The translations under genes were made by a program, and so were the position numbers. From Terriglobales bacterium (GTDB taxonomy: Bacteria > Acidobacteriota > Terriglobia > Terriglobales > Acidobacteriaceae), in contig DASPRM010000004.1 of the NCBI GenBank assembly GCA_035624455.1, positions 1 to 64,000 on the forward strand: 64,000 nucleotides of DNA, written 5' to 3'. Below the pieces are notes generated by a model. The model was not told the DNA's origin and did no database searches. It saw nothing but the letters and a program-made list of their open reading frames with translations. This document shows, piece by piece, positions 34,060-40,528 of the stretch. The first letter of the stretch is position 1. The number at the start of each line of letters is the position of its first letter.

Positions 34060-34920
34060 CTGAAAGTCGCAATCACCGGAAGCAACGGCTTGTTCGGACA
34101 TGCCCTGACGCTCGTTTTTGGCGAGCGACACGAAGCTGTGGCTCTTACCCGCCGAGATTTCGACCTCACCGATCACCAACGCATGCGCTCGGTACTGCTG
34201 CATTTGAGGCCACAACTGATCGTTCATCCTGCCGGAATTCCCGATATCGACCTATGCGAGCGGGAGCCAGAGCTAGCTTACGCTGTGAACACAGAAGCCA
34301 CGAAGGCTCTGGCCGAACTGGCACAGGAGATCGGCGCCGCGCTGGCGTACATTTCAACTGACGCCGTATTCGACGGCAAGAAGAGCAGCCCGTATGTTGA
34401 GAGCGATCCGACCGATCCGCCCTCGGTGTACGGACGCACCAAGCTGCTGGGCGAACAGGCAGTGAAAAAAATTCCCCAGCATTGGATCTTTCGTGTGTCA
34501 GTGCTTTTCGGGCCGGGCAAGACGAACTTTGTCGAGAAAGGGCTGCGAGCGCTGTCTGCTGGAAAAGACTATGTAGTAGCCGCCGACCAGGTCGGATCGG
34601 CTACATACACCAGCGATGCGGCACGAAAAATTCTTGAAGTGATCGAAAGCCGGCGCTTCGGTCTCTACCATCTGTCGAACCAGGGCGCGTGCAGCCGCCT
34701 GGGGCTTGCGGTCGCGGCGGCGGAGTTGGCAGGGCTGGATAAGAGCAAAGTGATTGGCAAGTCTTCCGACCAGATGGGGCGGATCGGGCCGCGGCTGAAG
34801 TATGCAGTCATGGAGATGAATGCTCTGCAGGCCGCCGGATTCGCACTGCCTCGCCCCTGGCAGGAAGCATTGGATGAGTATGTTGGATCGCTTAAGCAAG
34901 CTGGCACGGTCAAATTGTGA
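34060..34920 (+). CDS. RmlD-like NAD(P)-dependent sugar nucleotide reductase
   Basis: Extended short-chain reductase, 286 aa, resembling dTDP-4-dehydrorhamnose reductase. The cofactor loop is 'VAITGSNGLFGHAL' (Gly-x-x-Gly-x-x-Gly). 'YISTDAVFDG' and the catalytic 'YGRTKLLGE' (Tyr-x-x-x-Lys, about residue 130) follow. No ATG, GTG or TTG lies in frame before the Gly-rich loop; a CTG at 34060 has GGAGG four bases upstream and gives 'LKVAITGSNG', so CTG initiation is proposed. A TTG inside the loop at 34090 would destroy the cofactor site. No other rhamnose genes are nearby, so the true substrate is open. Confidence 0.83.
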   Translation: MKVAITGSNGLFGHALTLVFGERHEAVALTRRDFDLTDHQRMRSVLLHLRPQLIVHPAGIPDIDLCEREPELAYAVNTEATKALAELAQEIGAALAYISTDAVFDGKKSSPYVESDPTDPPSVYGRTKLLGEQAVKKIPQHWIFRVSVLFGPGKTNFVEKGLRALSAGKDYVVAADQVGSATYTSDAARKILEVIESRRFGLYHLSNQGACSRLGLAVAAAELAGLDKSKVIGKSSDQMGRIGPRLKYAVMEMNALQAAGFALPRPWQEALDEYVGSLKQAGTVKL

Positions 34921-34950
34921 TTGACCCGCGCTGTCCGGTCCGCTTAAACT
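34921..34950 (+). promoter_or_regulatory. Putative promoter of the hom leader
   Basis: TTGACC (34921-34926), an 18-base spacer, then TAAACT (34945-34950). Transcription would begin near 34957, only a few bases before the leader ATG at 34961, so the leader mRNA may be almost leaderless. This fits the lack of a Shine-Dalgarno sequence. Confidence 0.5.
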
Positions 34951-34960
34951 GACGCCAGAC

Positions 34961-35053
34961 ATGAGTTCCGCCTGCCAAAACCGCGTAACCCGGACCGGCC
35001 GAATTACCATGGCCATGCGCATGCGCTTTTGGCGAGGGGAGCTTATGAGCTAA
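34961..35053 (+). CDS. Putative leader peptide of the hom-metX attenuator
   Basis: A 30-codon ORF (ATG to TAA) between rmlD and hom. It contains three Thr (ACC), one Ile and five Met codons after the start. Codons 15-21 (35003-35023) read Ile-Thr-Met-Ala-Met-Arg-Met, directly before a segment that forms an antiterminator. The end products of hom are threonine, methionine and (via threonine) isoleucine, so these are the expected control codons. No Shine-Dalgarno sequence is visible, but the predicted start of transcription lies next to the ATG. The peptide itself shows no domain. Confidence 0.65.
   Translation: MSSACQNRVTRTGRITMAMRMRFWRGELMS
35024..35034 (+). promoter_or_regulatory. Antiterminator arm of the hom attenuator
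   Basis: CGCTTTTGGCG (35024-35034) can pair with 35087-35100: GGCG with CGCC (35087-35090) and CGCTTTT with AAAAGCG (35094-35100), leaving a 3-base bulge. This 11-bp structure and the terminator at 35080-35107 exclude each other. A ribosome stalled at codons 15-16 would leave it free; one reaching the stop codon region would cover or disrupt it. Confidence 0.6.
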
Positions 35054-35079
35054 TCGGCATTTATAAGGCGCTCAAACGC

Positions 35080-35117
35080 AACCCAACGCCAGAAAAAGCG
35101 TTGGGTTTTTGATTTTT
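35080..35117 (+). terminator. Rho-independent terminator (attenuator) upstream of hom
   Basis: A perfect 10-bp stem, AACCCAACGC (35080-35089) with GCGTTGGGTT (35098-35107), has an 8-base loop and is followed by a T-rich run broken by one GA. It sits 27 bp after the leader stop and 30 bp before hom, the position of a transcription attenuator. Confidence 0.85.
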
Positions 35118-35146
35118 GCGGGACACAACGAGACAGAGGGTCGAAA

Positions 35147-36445
35147 ATGAGCACTCTTCCCGACTCAGAAATCATGACCGAATCGAGCCTGCGGCCGTGT
35201 AATGTGGCAATTCTCGGTTTCGGCAACGTCGGCCGTTCGGTCGCCGACATTCTCTGCCATCGAGTTTCGCCGCGACTCCGTCTCACGCACATCTTCAACC
35301 GCGGGGTCGGCCGAAAACGGGTGTCCTGGATGCCGCCGCATGTCCACTGGACAGAAGACATCGAAGACATTGTCAGCTCCGATGCGGACATCGTCGTGGA
35401 AGTCCTGGGCGGCCTGGATCCTGCAGAGCAGTGGATACGCCGGCTGCTCGAGTCCGGGAAATCAGTGGTGACGGCCAACAAACAACTCATTGCGAAGTCC
35501 GGGCCAGAGTTGCAGGAACTGGCGCAGAAGCACGGACAGCAATTGGAATTCGGGGCATCGGTCGCGGGCGGCATTCCAGTGCTCTTGGCCCTGCAACAGG
35601 GTCTCGCCGGTGATGTGATTTTCAAGGTTACAGGAATTCTGAACGGTACGTGTAACTACATCCTGACGAAAATGGAAGCGGCGGGTGCGACGTTTGAAAC
35701 GGCGCTCGCTGAGGCGCAGCAATTCGGATTTGCCGAGGCCGATCCTACCGACGATGTCGAAGGGTACGATGCGCGGGCCAAGCTGGCCATCCTGGCGCGC
35801 GTGGGTCTGCACGCACAGATTCGGCCCGAGGACATTAGTTGCGCATCGATTCGTCCACTGGGAGCTGCCGATTTTGTTTACGCCACCAAACTCGACTGCA
35901 CCATACGCCAGGTTTCACGAGCGGAAGTGGAAGGCCGTCACGTGGTGGCGGCGGTGGAACCAGCGTTGGTTCCCGTCTCCTCGCCGCTGGCACGTGTGCA
36001 AGGCAGCCAGAACCTGGTAATTGCCACCGGAAAATATGGCGGCGAAACTGTTCTGGCGGGGCACGGCGCTGGCGGGCACCCGACGGCGGTGGCCGTGGTC
36101 TCGGACGTGATCGCGATTGCCCGAGCGCGCTCCGAAGATGAAGGCTTTTTCCATCATCGGCGAATTACGCCGTCGAAGATCACCGACGATTTCACCGCTC
36201 CGCGATACGTGCGCTTCGTGGTGAAAGACCGTCCCGGGATCATTGCACGTCTTTCCGGCACGTTCGCCAAGCACGCCATCAACATTGATTCCGTTTTGCA
36301 ATACCCGGGATATCCCAAGAACGAATTGCCATTCGTAATCACGCTGGAAGCATGCGGAAAGTCATTGCTGCAGGAAGCGTTGGCGGAAATTAAGGATGAG
36401 GATTTCCACGTCCAGCCGCCACTGGCCCTGCCGATTCTCCGCTGA
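35147..36445 (+). CDS. hom: Homoserine dehydrogenase
   Basis: Reduces aspartate semialdehyde to homoserine, the branch point to threonine and methionine; 432 aa. The Rossmann loop is 'VAILGFGNVGRSVADIL' (about residues 20-36). 'VVTANKQLIAKSG', 'GASVAGGIPVL', 'GILNGTCNYILTKM' and 'EADPTDDVEGYDARAKLAIL' are catalytic-domain signatures. A C-terminal ACT domain (about 345-430, starting 'RYVRFVVKDRPGIIARLSG') suggests feedback inhibition by threonine. GAGGG precedes ATG 35147. The gene lies behind an attenuator and is followed 55 bp later by metX. Confidence 0.96.
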   Translation: MSTLPDSEIMTESSLRPCNVAILGFGNVGRSVADILCHRVSPRLRLTHIFNRGVGRKRVSWMPPHVHWTEDIEDIVSSDADIVVEVLGGLDPAEQWIRRLLESGKSVVTANKQLIAKSGPELQELAQKHGQQLEFGASVAGGIPVLLALQQGLAGDVIFKVTGILNGTCNYILTKMEAAGATFETALAEAQQFGFAEADPTDDVEGYDARAKLAILARVGLHAQIRPEDISCASIRPLGAADFVYATKLDCTIRQVSRAEVEGRHVVAAVEPALVPVSSPLARVQGSQNLVIATGKYGGETVLAGHGAGGHPTAVAVVSDVIAIARARSEDEGFFHHRRITPSKITDDFTAPRYVRFVVKDRPGIIARLSGTFAKHAINIDSVLQYPGYPKNELPFVITLEACGKSLLQEALAEIKDEDFHVQPPLALPILR

Positions 36446-36500: not shown

Positions 36501-37646
36501 ATGAAACTGTTCGAGCCTACTCTGGAAGGCGACTTTCTTTTTGCCGAAGACCAACCGTTCCGGCTCGAAGCTGGCGGTACGCTGCAACCGGTTTCTCTTC
36601 ACTACGCGATTTACGGATCCCTCAACGCGCTCGATAACGTGGCGCTCGTCTGTCATGCGCTATCAGGGTCGGCGCGGGTTGCCGATTGGTGGGAAGGAAT
36701 GTTTGGCACCAGCGAAGCCTTCGATCTCGCGCGCTGCTGTGTTATCGGGATCAACGTGCTCGGGTCGTGCTATGGCTCAACTGGTCCAACTTCAGTCAAT
36801 CCGGAAACAGGAATCCCCTATGGTCCGGACTTCCCGCTCATCACCATTCGCGATATGGTACGCAGCCAGGCTCGCCTGCTGGATCATTTGGGGATTTATC
36901 GGCTACGGACGGTCATCGGCGGATCGATCGGCGGAATGCAGGCGCTGCAGTGGGCAATTGAGTTTCCCGATAGAGTAGCGACCTCGATTCCCATTGGAGC
37001 TACACCCCTCTCGGCCATGGGACTGGCGCTGAACCACATTCAGCGGCTCAGCATTCAGTCGGATACTCACTGGAACGGCGGCCGGTATACTCCCGAAGCA
37101 CCGCCCAACGCGGGGCTTGGCCTGGCGCGGGCATTAGCCATGTGCTCATACAAATCGGCCGAGTTGTTTGACGCTCGCTACGGGCGTCGCGCGAACCGCA
37201 ACGGCGAAAACCCTTACGCATCGCTCGAGCACCGTTTCGATATCGCGGGCTACCTCGACTATCAGAGAAATCAGTTCAACAGCCGCTTTGATGCCAACAC
37301 TTACATTACGATCTCGAAGGCGATGGATATCTTTGACCTGGTGCGCACTTACGGATCGGAAGACGCAGCGTTCGAGAGAATCCGCTCACGCGTGCTAATG
37401 ATCGGAGTCTCCTCCGACTGGCTCTTCCCTGCAGCCGATGTGCGGGCTTTGACACTCAGGATGCAGAACGCAGGAGTTCGCGCCCGCTATGCGGAGCTGG
37501 TGAGTTCGCATGGCCACGATGCTTTTCTGGCCGATGCGGATGAGCTGTCGTCAGTGATTTCGGCGCATGAAGGCTGGTTGCATCCGACGGTGAATCGCAT
37601 CCCGGAAGGTCGCCACGATCAGGGTTCATTAGCAGCGGGATACTGA
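36501..37646 (+). CDS. metX: Homoserine O-acetyltransferase
   Basis: First committed step of methionine synthesis, acetylating homoserine; 381 aa. Alpha/beta-hydrolase fold with the nucleophile Ser in 'VIGGSIGGMQALQWAIEF' (about residue 143), the Asp in 'SSDWLFPAADV' and His in 'SSHGHDAFLAD'. 'CYGSTGPTSVNPETG' and 'LICHALSGSARVAD'-like ('LVCHALSGSARVAD') are MetX signatures. Some MetX-like enzymes use succinyl-CoA, so the acyl donor is not certain. ATG 36501 follows GGGAG. The gene is probably co-transcribed with hom under the same attenuator. Confidence 0.94.
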   Translation: MKLFEPTLEGDFLFAEDQPFRLEAGGTLQPVSLHYAIYGSLNALDNVALVCHALSGSARVADWWEGMFGTSEAFDLARCCVIGINVLGSCYGSTGPTSVNPETGIPYGPDFPLITIRDMVRSQARLLDHLGIYRLRTVIGGSIGGMQALQWAIEFPDRVATSIPIGATPLSAMGLALNHIQRLSIQSDTHWNGGRYTPEAPPNAGLGLARALAMCSYKSAELFDARYGRRANRNGENPYASLEHRFDIAGYLDYQRNQFNSRFDANTYITISKAMDIFDLVRTYGSEDAAFERIRSRVLMIGVSSDWLFPAADVRALTLRMQNAGVRARYAELVSSHGHDAFLADADELSSVISAHEGWLHPTVNRIPEGRHDQGSLAAGY

Positions 37647-37744: not shown

Positions 37745-40528
37745 ATGCCAAACTTCTACGACAAGATCCTGGAATCCGCAGGCAAGTGGCCCAACGCGAC
37801 TGCCCTCCAGATGCAGTACGAGGATGGGAGGCTGGAAGGCTACACCTACTCCGAGGTCCGTCATATTGCGGATAGCGTGGGCAATTGGCTGTCCAGGACA
37901 GAGCTGGCGCGCGGCAGCCGATGCGCAATCCTGGCCAACAATGGCCCTCGCTGGGTCTGCGTTTACCTGGGAACCCTGGCGGCCGGGCTGGTGGCAGTTC
38001 CGCTGGACACCGCCTTCACTTCCAGCCAGGTCACAAAGCTGCTCACGGACTGTGGTGCTTCCCTGCTATTTGTCGACTCCAGGCAATTAGCCAAAGCGCG
38101 TGAGGCAATTACTGAAGTGGAAACGCCGGTGCGCCTGGTCTTGCTGCGCTCAACGGAAGAAGAATCCCGCCTGGTCTCTGTCGACGACATGCTCGGTTCC
38201 GGCAGCGGCGGATTCGAGCGAGTGGATGTCGGATTCGACGATACTGCCGCTATCCTCTACACCTCGGGGACTACTTCCGATCCAAAAGGAGTAATGCTCA
38301 GCCACCGCAACATCGATGCGGAAGCTGAGAGTGCTTTCCAAGTGCTCACGGACATCGGACCGCAGGATTCCATCCTGGGAGTCTTGCCCCTCTTTCATGC
38401 CCTGGCGCAGATGGCCAACCTGCTGCTTCCGCTGATCGTGGGAGCACGAATTGTTTTTCTTGAATCGCTGAATACTACCGAACTACTGCGCGCGCTTCGC
38501 GAGCGCGACATTACTCTCTTCTGCTGTGTTCCCCAATTCTTTTACCTGATTCACACGCGCATCTTCAAAGAAGTGCATGCCCGCGGGCGCCTCACCGAAA
38601 CGATTTTTTCCTATCTTCTGGCGCTCAATGGGCGGGCAAGAAGGTTCGGCATCAATCTGGGGAGGCTGTTCTTCCCACGTGTGCACGAGCTGCTGGGAAG
38701 GCGCATGCATTACCTGATCACCGGCGGTTCGCGCCTGGACCCGCAGGTGGGACGAGACTTCGAAGCGCTGGGCTTCACCATCCTCAACGCCTACGGGCTG
38801 ACGGAAACCAGCGGCGCCGCCACCCTGACGCCGCCGAAGAAGAATGTAGTCGGGTCAGTGGGCAGAGCGCTGCCGGGAAATGAAGTTCAGATCTTGCGCC
38901 CTGAGACCGATCCCGAGACTGGCCATCGGATCGGCGAAATCGCTGTCCGCGGCGGGATCGTAATGAAGGGTTATTACAACCGCCCCGATGCCACCGCTGC
39001 GGCGCTCGAGGATGGGTGGCTGCGCACCGGCGATCTCGGCTTCATGGATGCTGAGGGCAACGTTTTCATCACCGGCCGAGCCAAGGAAGTCATCGTCCTC
39101 AGTTCGGGAAAAAATATATATCCCGAAGAAATCGAAGCGCACTATGGCCGCAGCGCGTTCATCAAGGAGATGTGTGTGTTGGGGATCGAGGGCCAGCCGG
39201 GCGAGCCGCTCTCCGAGAGACTTCACGCCGTGATTGTTCCCGATTTTGACGTTCTGCGCGAGCAGAAGATTGTGAATGCGAGAGAGATCATTCGCTACGA
39301 AATCGAGGGTTTCTCTTCCCAACTGCCTTCCACCAAACGAATTTTGAGCTACGAAATATGGCAGGAGGACCTTCCGCGTACCACGACGCGCAAGCTGAAG
39401 CGAAACGCGGTGGAAGCGCAGGTGAGAGCAGGCGATGGACAGCGGGCCGAAGCGGAGCCATTGCGGCCGCGAGCCTTGAATGCAGGTGATCGCGAATGGG
39501 TGGCAATTCCAGATGTCCAGCGCGCGCTGGAAGTGGTACGGGCCTCGTCAAAAAAGCAGGTTGCGGAGGTTCACCCCACGGACAATCTGGAGCTTGATTT
39601 GGGCTTGGACTCGATGGAGCGCGTCGAACTACTAGTGTCGCTGGAGCGCGAACTTGGGGCTCACGTTCCCGACGGAGTCGTGTCGGAGGTTTACACGGTT
39701 CGCGAGTTGATAGATGCCGTGCGTAGCAACATGGGCAGCAATGGCAAACGCAAGTCCGCCACCGCTTGGGGCTCCGTACTTAGCGCCGATCCCACCGAAC
39801 CCGAAATTGTCGAGTTTTCCAAGCCTCACTCGTTCGCGCTGCATTTTTGGTACACCGTGGGTTGTATTGTTCAACTATTCGCGCGAGACCGATTCCAGCT
39901 GAGCGTCACCGGTCTGGAAAAACTGCCAAAGAGCGGTCCGTTTATTCTTTCGCCCAATCATCAGAGCTATCTCGACCCAATCATTTTGCTGAGTGTCCTC
40001 CCCTGGCGGTTGTTTCGCGACCAGTTTTCGGTGGGGACCAGCGAGATTTTCGGAACCGGCCTGGCGCGAAAGCTGGCGTACACGCTGAATCTGGTACCGG
40101 TAGATCCAGATGCCAATCTGGTTCCCGCTATGCGCGCCGGCGCTTTCGGTTTGCGGCGCGGAAAGGTGCTCATTCTTTTCCCGGAAGGCGAACGAAGCAT
40201 CGACGGCAGCCCGAGGATTTTCAAGAAAGGCGCCGCCATTTTGTCCTGTAACCTCCAGGTCCCAATCTATCCCGTCGCGCTTGATGGATTTTATGAGGCT
40301 TGGCCACGCGGCAAGCATTTCCAGCGATTCGCGCCTTTGAAGATGGCATTCGGCGATCCCATCTATCCGCCCAAGGAGACTTCAGATCCCGAAGCTGCCT
40401 ACGAAGAGCTAACCTCTCTGCTGAAGAAGCGAGTGATGGAAATGTGGCTGGCACTGCGCGGGGAGCAGCGGCCTACAGAGAATGGCAATGCTGCGGTGCA
40501 GGAGCCGCAGGCTATGTTGGCCAGGTGA
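37745..40528 (+). CDS. Fused acyl-AMP ligase, acyl carrier protein and PlsC-type acyltransferase
   Basis: A 927-aa protein with three domains. Residues about 1-560 are an AMP-binding acyl-CoA/ACP synthetase ('AAILYTSGTTSDPKGVMLSH', 'NAYGLTETSGAATLTPP', 'WLRTGDLGFMD', 'GKNIYPEEIE'). Residues about 590-660 form a carrier domain with the phosphopantetheine Ser in 'LELDLGLDSMERVELL'. Residues about 690-900 form a 1-acylglycerol-3-phosphate-acyltransferase domain with 'LSPNHQSYLDPIILL' (HxxxxD) and 'LILFPEGERSIDG'. The arrangement resembles the lysophospholipid-repair enzyme Aas but with an added carrier protein. Probably activates a fatty acid, loads the internal carrier and acylates a lipid at the inner membrane. 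Confidence 0.9.
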   Translation: MPNFYDKILESAGKWPNATALQMQYEDGRLEGYTYSEVRHIADSVGNWLSRTELARGSRCAILANNGPRWVCVYLGTLAAGLVAVPLDTAFTSSQVTKLLTDCGASLLFVDSRQLAKAREAITEVETPVRLVLLRSTEEESRLVSVDDMLGSGSGGFERVDVGFDDTAAILYTSGTTSDPKGVMLSHRNIDAEAESAFQVLTDIGPQDSILGVLPLFHALAQMANLLLPLIVGARIVFLESLNTTELLRALRERDITLFCCVPQFFYLIHTRIFKEVHARGRLTETIFSYLLALNGRARRFGINLGRLFFPRVHELLGRRMHYLITGGSRLDPQVGRDFEALGFTILNAYGLTETSGAATLTPPKKNVVGSVGRALPGNEVQILRPETDPETGHRIGEIAVRGGIVMKGYYNRPDATAAALEDGWLRTGDLGFMDAEGNVFITGRAKEVIVLSSGKNIYPEEIEAHYGRSAFIKEMCVLGIEGQPGEPLSERLHAVIVPDFDVLREQKIVNAREIIRYEIEGFSSQLPSTKRILSYEIWQEDLPRTTTRKLKRNAVEAQVRAGDGQRAEAEPLRPRALNAGDREWVAIPDVQRALEVVRASSKKQVAEVHPTDNLELDLGLDSMERVELLVSLERELGAHVPDGVVSEVYTVRELIDAVRSNMGSNGKRKSATAWGSVLSADPTEPEIVEFSKPHSFALHFWYTVGCIVQLFARDRFQLSVTGLEKLPKSGPFILSPNHQSYLDPIILLSVLPWRLFRDQFSVGTSEIFGTGLARKLAYTLNLVPVDPDANLVPAMRAGAFGLRRGKVLILFPEGERSIDGSPRIFKKGAAILSCNLQVPIYPVALDGFYEAWPRGKHFQRFAPLKMAFGDPIYPPKETSDPEAAYEELTSLLKKRVMEMWLALRGEQRPTENGNAAVQEPQAMLAR

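Follow-up and report, generated by a model that had tools for sequence, protein, structure and literature searches.

A probable ribosome-mediated attenuator with a near-leaderless leader ORF upstream of hom-metX, and related leaders before other amino acid and sulfur operons in Acidobacteriota

The thr and ilv operons of enterobacteria are preceded by attenuators (thrL and ilvL) in which a short ORF carrying codons for the end-product amino acids is combined with alternative 1:2, 2:3 and 3:4 pairings and an intrinsic terminator before the first structural gene. The region upstream of hom in the 64,000-nucleotide stretch of Terriglobales bacterium DNA analyzed here (contig DASPRM010000004.1, positions 1 to 64,000; called the window below) resembles them in its ORF with pathway codons, its alternative pairings and its terminator before the first structural gene. 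It differs in having Met codons rather than long Thr/Ile runs and no match to Rfam Thr_leader, in the position of its AUG about 4 nt from the predicted 5′ end without a Shine-Dalgarno sequence, in the location of segment 2 inside the ORF, and in that hom-metX would be the operon controlled.

Other described systems share parts of this design. Mycobacteria carry leaderless polycysteine short ORFs (Canestrari et al. 2020, as cited in PMC13236596), first proposed in PMC4633059; the likeness is one of description, in that sulfur genes there lie downstream of a short leaderless ORF containing consecutive sensing codons. The leaders discussed here belong to another phylum and have a defined antiterminator/terminator core common to Thr/Ile-, Met- and other leaders. 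The 5′ end of the attenuator transcript of Sinorhizobium meliloti trpL is the start codon of its leader ORF (PMC7298713), but trpL is Trp-sensing and alphaproteobacterial, and the likeness is one of design, with no similarity claimed. SAM-II riboswitches act at metA and metZ by premature termination (PMC9373788), and the hom leader is like them in lying before methionine genes and in its predicted premature termination; they rely, however, on a metabolite aptamer, whereas the hom leader has a putatively translated ORF and no Rfam match. According to one survey (PMC2965389), hardly any attenuator predicted in Acidobacteria had a function. In the papers covered by full-text searches, leader peptides for hom, methionine or cysteine are not described for Acidobacteriota. 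A preliminary description of this DNA likewise names no earlier account of such a leader for hom in acidobacteria, and Rfam has no family for it. The mechanism would be that of classical ribosome-mediated attenuation, and the near-leaderless Acidobacteriota family is apparently undescribed.

The genes and main leader elements are the following.

34921-34950, forward strand: promoter with -35 TTGACC, an 18-nt spacer and -10 TAAACT (sequence scan)
34961-35053, forward strand: leader ORF of 30 codons, MSSACQNRVTRTGRITMAMRMRFWRGELMS (ORF translation)
35003-35023, forward strand: sensing block, codons 15-21, Ile Thr Met Ala Met Arg Met (ORF translation)
35080-35117, forward strand: intrinsic terminator (3:4), stem 35080-35089/35098-35107, then a T-rich tail (scan and covariation)
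35147-36445, forward strand: hom, homoserine dehydrogenase with a C-terminal ACT domain, putatively the first regulated gene (Pfam, NCBIfam)
36501-37646, forward strand: metX, homoserine O-acetyltransferase (NCBIfam PRK00175 metX, above cut-off)

The metX start is tentatively placed at 36501; the longest ORF, from 36396, overlaps hom. Beyond this operon, positions 37745-40528 hold a single 927-aa ORF that combines an AMP-binding enzyme, a phosphopantetheine site and an acyltransferase domain. Upstream, promoter, leader ORF and terminator all fit between the stop of an rmlD-like gene on the same strand (34090-34920) and the hom start at 35147, with 30 nt from the T-run to hom. Both the 30-codon ORF with Ile-Thr-Met-Ala-Met-Arg-Met at codons 15-21 and the perfect 10-bp terminator with its T-run (35080-35107) between it and hom, as reported in the preliminary description, are seen in the sequence. 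The promoter position predicts a transcription start at about 34957 and hence a 5′ UTR of about 4 nt; with a start so near, this ORF could have no Shine-Dalgarno sequence. The stop codon lies at 35051. Scans of the leader region found one promoter, against 0.2 expected in shuffles, and one terminator, against 0.4 expected; by themselves these scans are only suggestive, and it is the comparative evidence from related leaders that places the window case well above chance.

Three further RNA segments would complete the proposed switch.

34960-34986, forward strand: segment 1, 5′ arm of a protector hairpin, pairing with 35021-35047 (RNA fold)
35027-35038, forward strand: segment 2, 5′ arm of the antiterminator (UUUUGGCG-A-GGG), within the last ORF codons (fold; family core CUUCUGGCGNNGGG)
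35082-35094, forward strand: segment 3, 3′ arm of the antiterminator (CCCAACGCCAGAA), overlapping the terminator 5′ arm and loop (fold and comparison)

The naked leader is predicted to fold into a long 1:2 hairpin plus the 3:4 terminator, at -62.5 kcal/mol (z = -4.1 against composition-matched shuffles, 0 of 200 of which equalled it). The strong 1:2 hairpin (34960-34986/35021-35047) was missing from the structures first listed, whose coordinates were right, and equivalent hairpins are predicted in five further hom leaders (L005, L015, L032, L036 and L037). The antiterminator pairs 35027-35034 (UUUUGGCG) with 35087-35094, and 35036-35038 with 35082-35084; an 11-bp alternative pairing of 35024-35034 with 35087-35100 had been proposed earlier, and its part 35027-35034 is borne out, but it lacks the outer GGG:CCC pairs at 35036-35038/35082-35084. 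Over 35022-35099, which is approximately the RNA left free by a ribosome waiting at codons 15-17 and lacks the 3′ terminator arm not yet made, the best predicted structure is the antiterminator (-25.2 kcal/mol). When a ribosome occupies the stop codon (RNA free from about 35067), the terminator alone remains in the predicted fold. Over the full 35022-35117 the terminator is predicted to be thermodynamically preferred to the antiterminator, so the switch must be kinetic.

It is very probable that a ribosome-mediated transcription attenuator with a near-leaderless leader ORF controls hom-metX. Transcription would start about 4 nt upstream of the leader AUG, where a ribosome would initiate without a Shine-Dalgarno sequence. 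With sufficient charged tRNAs it would pass Ile15-Thr16-Met17-Ala-Met19-Arg-Met21 and reach the stop codon at 35051; its footprint there and the re-formed 1:2 hairpin would hold segments 2 and 3 apart, allowing the 3:4 terminator to form and RNA polymerase to halt near 35117. Under a shortage of Met (probably also of Thr or Ile), the ribosome would stall at codons 15-19 and leave segment 2 free to pair with segment 3 before segment 4 is made, so that the terminator would be blocked and hom-metX transcribed. We infer where transcription starts, that the near-leaderless AUG is translated, that ribosomes stall and that Met elicits the response; the sequences themselves show that the elements are present, conserved, covarying and coevolving, and that the sensing codons fit the function of the operon. 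The ribosome-dependent attenuation of hom-metX put forward in the preliminary description gains support from homologous leaders in other genera, frame-preserving indels in the met-type leaders, terminator covariation, antiterminator coevolution and operon-matched codons.

The hom loci were compared in 61, later 398, genomes of the family. In the examined loci hom often lies directly after lysC, and then has no leader of its own, and no terminator stands directly upstream of hom at the nearest hom matches in named genomes. Leaders are present before hom-initiated operons in G015 (L005) and G101 (L032), both hom-metY-metX, and before hom-thrC operons in G021 (L015), G178 (L036) and G078 (L037). 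The met-type peptides are MSSACQNRVTRTGRITMAMRMRFWRGELMS, MSFISQNAVLAQGRITTMAMCMHICTFRREELLT and MSTRCQIRTIVACRRPAMAMSMHMCTIRPTGAGFQQS, and the thr-type peptides are MKTNVQICTSITITATTMVAIHPCFWRT and MSCIVNTTGVNTPATAGTGITRLTVEDG. Met-Ala-Met-x-Met is common to all three hom-met peptides; Ile and Thr are also encoded in two of the three, with Ile-Thr before Met in the window and G015, and the block of L032 is M-A-M-S-M-H-M, without Ile-Thr. Indels among the three met-type leaders are all multiples of three, which keeps the reading frame, and CATGGCCATG is kept at the nucleotide level. A covariance model built from these three leaders (R1) scores those of G015 and G101 at E 8e-43 and 1e-36, both being among its seeds. 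Only three hom-met leaders of the window type were found in the 398 family genomes, each the sole one seen in its genus; when more species were sought in the genera to which the window and G015 belong, those genomes alone came up. A one-mismatch pattern, CATGGCCATGNNNATGCNC, matched nearly all of the 398 genomes and is uninformative as a leader marker. Of the two hom loci in G015, hom-metY-metX (L005) has the met-type attenuator, whereas in lysC-hom-thrC (L194) no leader stands immediately upstream of hom, which ties the met-type leader to a dedicated methionine branch in that genome.

Across the wider set of leaders, in which ORFs were picked by rule with the start chosen manually in 16 cases, the sensing codons match the operon product. 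In the three hom-met leaders Met, start codon excluded, accounts for 11% of residues; 14 lysC or hom-thrC leaders contain 21% Thr and 9% Ile, and 46 leaders of cysteine operons 24% Cys. In 27 leaders 92.6% of terminator cells are paired, with compensatory changes at 7 of 11 pairs and 0 of 500 shuffles as good; the antiterminator alignment is 82.9% paired, against 36-50% when slid, and its covariation score was matched by 2 of 500 shuffles (here and in the swap test below, representative leaders are treated as independent, though they are related). Own partners of segments 2 and 3 pair more stably than swapped ones among 28 dissimilar representatives (-21.0 kcal/mol on average, against -18.7 kcal/mol after swapping; z = -6.1, 0 of 20,000). 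This signal belongs to the set: the window's own segment pair is unremarkable singly, 59% of swaps doing equally well, since the conserved core is common to its partners. Of the 27 leaders, 16 read that core in frame 0, 5 in frame 1 and 6 in frame 2, which implies selection on RNA pairing and not on the peptide tail. Alignment of the region upstream of hom in relatives, proposed in the preliminary description as a check, finds the ORF frame kept and Met codons common in the hom-met leaders; the compensatory terminator changes and coevolving antiterminator partners are seen in the wider set of leaders.

The spacing of promoter and ATG is shared as well. In 44 of 66 leaders, 6-13 nt separate the ATG from the end of a promoter (scoring at least 9 of 12); this holds for 2 of 2191 other ATGs in these loci and 43 of 6600 shuffled upstream regions, so a near-leaderless design is predicted to be general in these leaders. 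A simple scan finds no promoter in 15 of 67. The predicted start about 4 nt from the window ATG, without a Shine-Dalgarno sequence, agrees with this placement, but the view of it as an oddity of the hom locus gives way, since it appears to be the rule in a large attenuator family.

The R1 search of the 398 family genomes gave 118 matches in 101 genomes, 70 of which were read individually. Sulfite reductase, cysK, cysG or cysD follows in 51 of these 70, nearly all with Cys runs (e.g. MSDSQNLRAVCCCTCCCCACVCTGAGRLLT), and lysC follows in 12, with Thr/Ile (e.g. MKTLIQKSTRITSTGTGMSTRITCLLEDGIG). Because the R1 model contained no Cys runs, the Cys-run leaders are independent evidence. In the genome of the window itself, a sulfite reductase gene is preceded by a Cys-rich leader, MISSCQIVGSGVACNTCCCTTPSSGAGRRLE, and a terminator (G000:C139:38400-38503; L277, L280), arranged like those of hom. 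Elsewhere in this genome, on the minus strand at G000:C133:21796-21897 (L281), a Cys-rich leader, MKLCCLNACCCRAMHMRASSASAAGS, with a weak match to a second model (R2) lies before a rhodanese-like gene. A weak R1 match at G000:C115:56048 (E 0.79) was set aside as chance; a convincing leader ORF and a downstream biosynthetic gene are both absent there.

R2 was made from 27 leaders and spans segment 2 to the T-run; the window leader, itself one of the 27 seeds, scores 58.2 bits (E 2e-9) and fits the family core of CUUCUGGCGNNGGG / CCCAYCGCCAGAAG plus terminator. The matches of R2 extend to other families of the phylum and to further operons: MSHVGQNTVGVLLLIGVSVVLLITPVLAGRT, rich in Leu/Ile/Val, before an ilvD-like gene (L291, G098); a Trp-rich leader with QGWWRWCIPTEVAF before an anthranilate-synthase-like (trpE-like) gene (L300, G476); and MTTTNYNSRTINAAWYWWSVNVGGCVVWREM, rich in Trp/Tyr, before a DAHP-synthase-like gene (L303, G598), these three gene names being read from the protein sequences. 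These leaders suggest that sensing in the attenuator family extends to more amino acids. R2 also found cysK and cysD leaders and, in another family of the phylum, a second Met-rich leader, MAMAMRGPTGGGGALM, with terminator before metY at a contig edge (L305, G715), while R1 over the class found the lysC leader MLSLANSKRGASSISMATTTIITTTITTTGASGEGRNS in another family. The shared core and the cross-detection of leaders by the models favour descent of the cassettes from a shared ancestor within the family over convergence.

Methionine is probably the main signal of the hom-met leaders, since Met codons are the sole feature common to these three and the metY leader. Stalling had been placed at Ile15/Thr16 in the preliminary description; its attenuation model is retained, with the main signal probably Met instead, as L032 lacks Ile-Thr. 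Sensing mainly of Thr and/or Ile, with the Met codons secondary, is the less likely reading, though one with several points in its favor: in the window and G015 the Met codons come after Ile-Thr, Thr and Ile are also supplied through hom, the lysC and hom-thrC leaders related to this one are rich in Thr/Ile, and a stall at codons 15-16 should free segment 2 clearly, while a ribosome at Met21 would, by its expected footprint, cover part of it. The M-A-M-S-M-H-M block of L032 speaks against it, as do the operons, each of the three leading to methionine rather than threonine.

Three other readings fare much worse. A metabolite riboswitch, such as a SAM- or methionine-type aptamer in the 34960-35047 hairpin, with the ORF incidental, would accord with the strength of that hairpin, with an operon that makes methionine (a usual target of SAM riboswitches) and with the nucleotide-level conservation of CATGGCCATG. 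It is nonetheless very unlikely: the leader matches no Rfam cis-regulatory family (Thr_leader, SAM riboswitches, T-box) even at a permissive threshold, the Rfam matches of the window being tRNAs only; the indels come in multiples of three; and an aptamer explains none of the Cys, Thr/Ile, Ile/Leu/Val and Trp codon runs found on one scaffold before matching operons. It is still more improbable that the terminator merely ends the rmlD-like transcript, with the hom promoter further downstream and the ORF and alternative pairing due to chance. The terminator does sit between two same-strand genes, and the single-window scans are barely above expectation, but a promoter is present between the rmlD-like stop and the terminator, only 30 nt separate the T-run from hom, no rmlD-like gene was found beside hom at the other met-type loci, and terminator, antiterminator and ORF are conserved jointly. 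Action of the small peptide in trans, besides or instead of attenuation in cis, has just as slight a chance; C-terminal motifs are conserved within subgroups (SSGAGRLLT, LLEEG) and S. meliloti peTrpL has a published role in trans (PMC7298713), but the tail is the translation of segment 2 in three frames, and RNA pairing explains its conservation.

With ribosome-mediated attenuation as the preferred reading of the hom leader, we lean, with some reserve, towards one ancestral cassette in Acidobacteriota, consisting of a near-leaderless ORF that encodes the antiterminator segment at its 3′ end and a covarying terminator. It may have been copied or re-tuned between operons by exchange of the sensing codons alone (Met, Thr/Ile, Cys, Ile/Leu/Val, Trp, Trp/Tyr) and may serve as the phylum's general amino acid and sulfur regulation, with Met sensed by stalling at Met codons. 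One RNA core is retained in these leaders while the sensing codons vary. Many Acidobacteria attenuators would gain a function and a testable rule, that the sensing codons predict the operon, and a methionine-sensing leader, of which no earlier description was found in the literature searched, would join the known attenuators. The near-leaderless start would load the ribosome as the RNA emerges, which bears on coupling without a Shine-Dalgarno sequence, and the core may be used for annotating leader peptides overlooked by gene finders.
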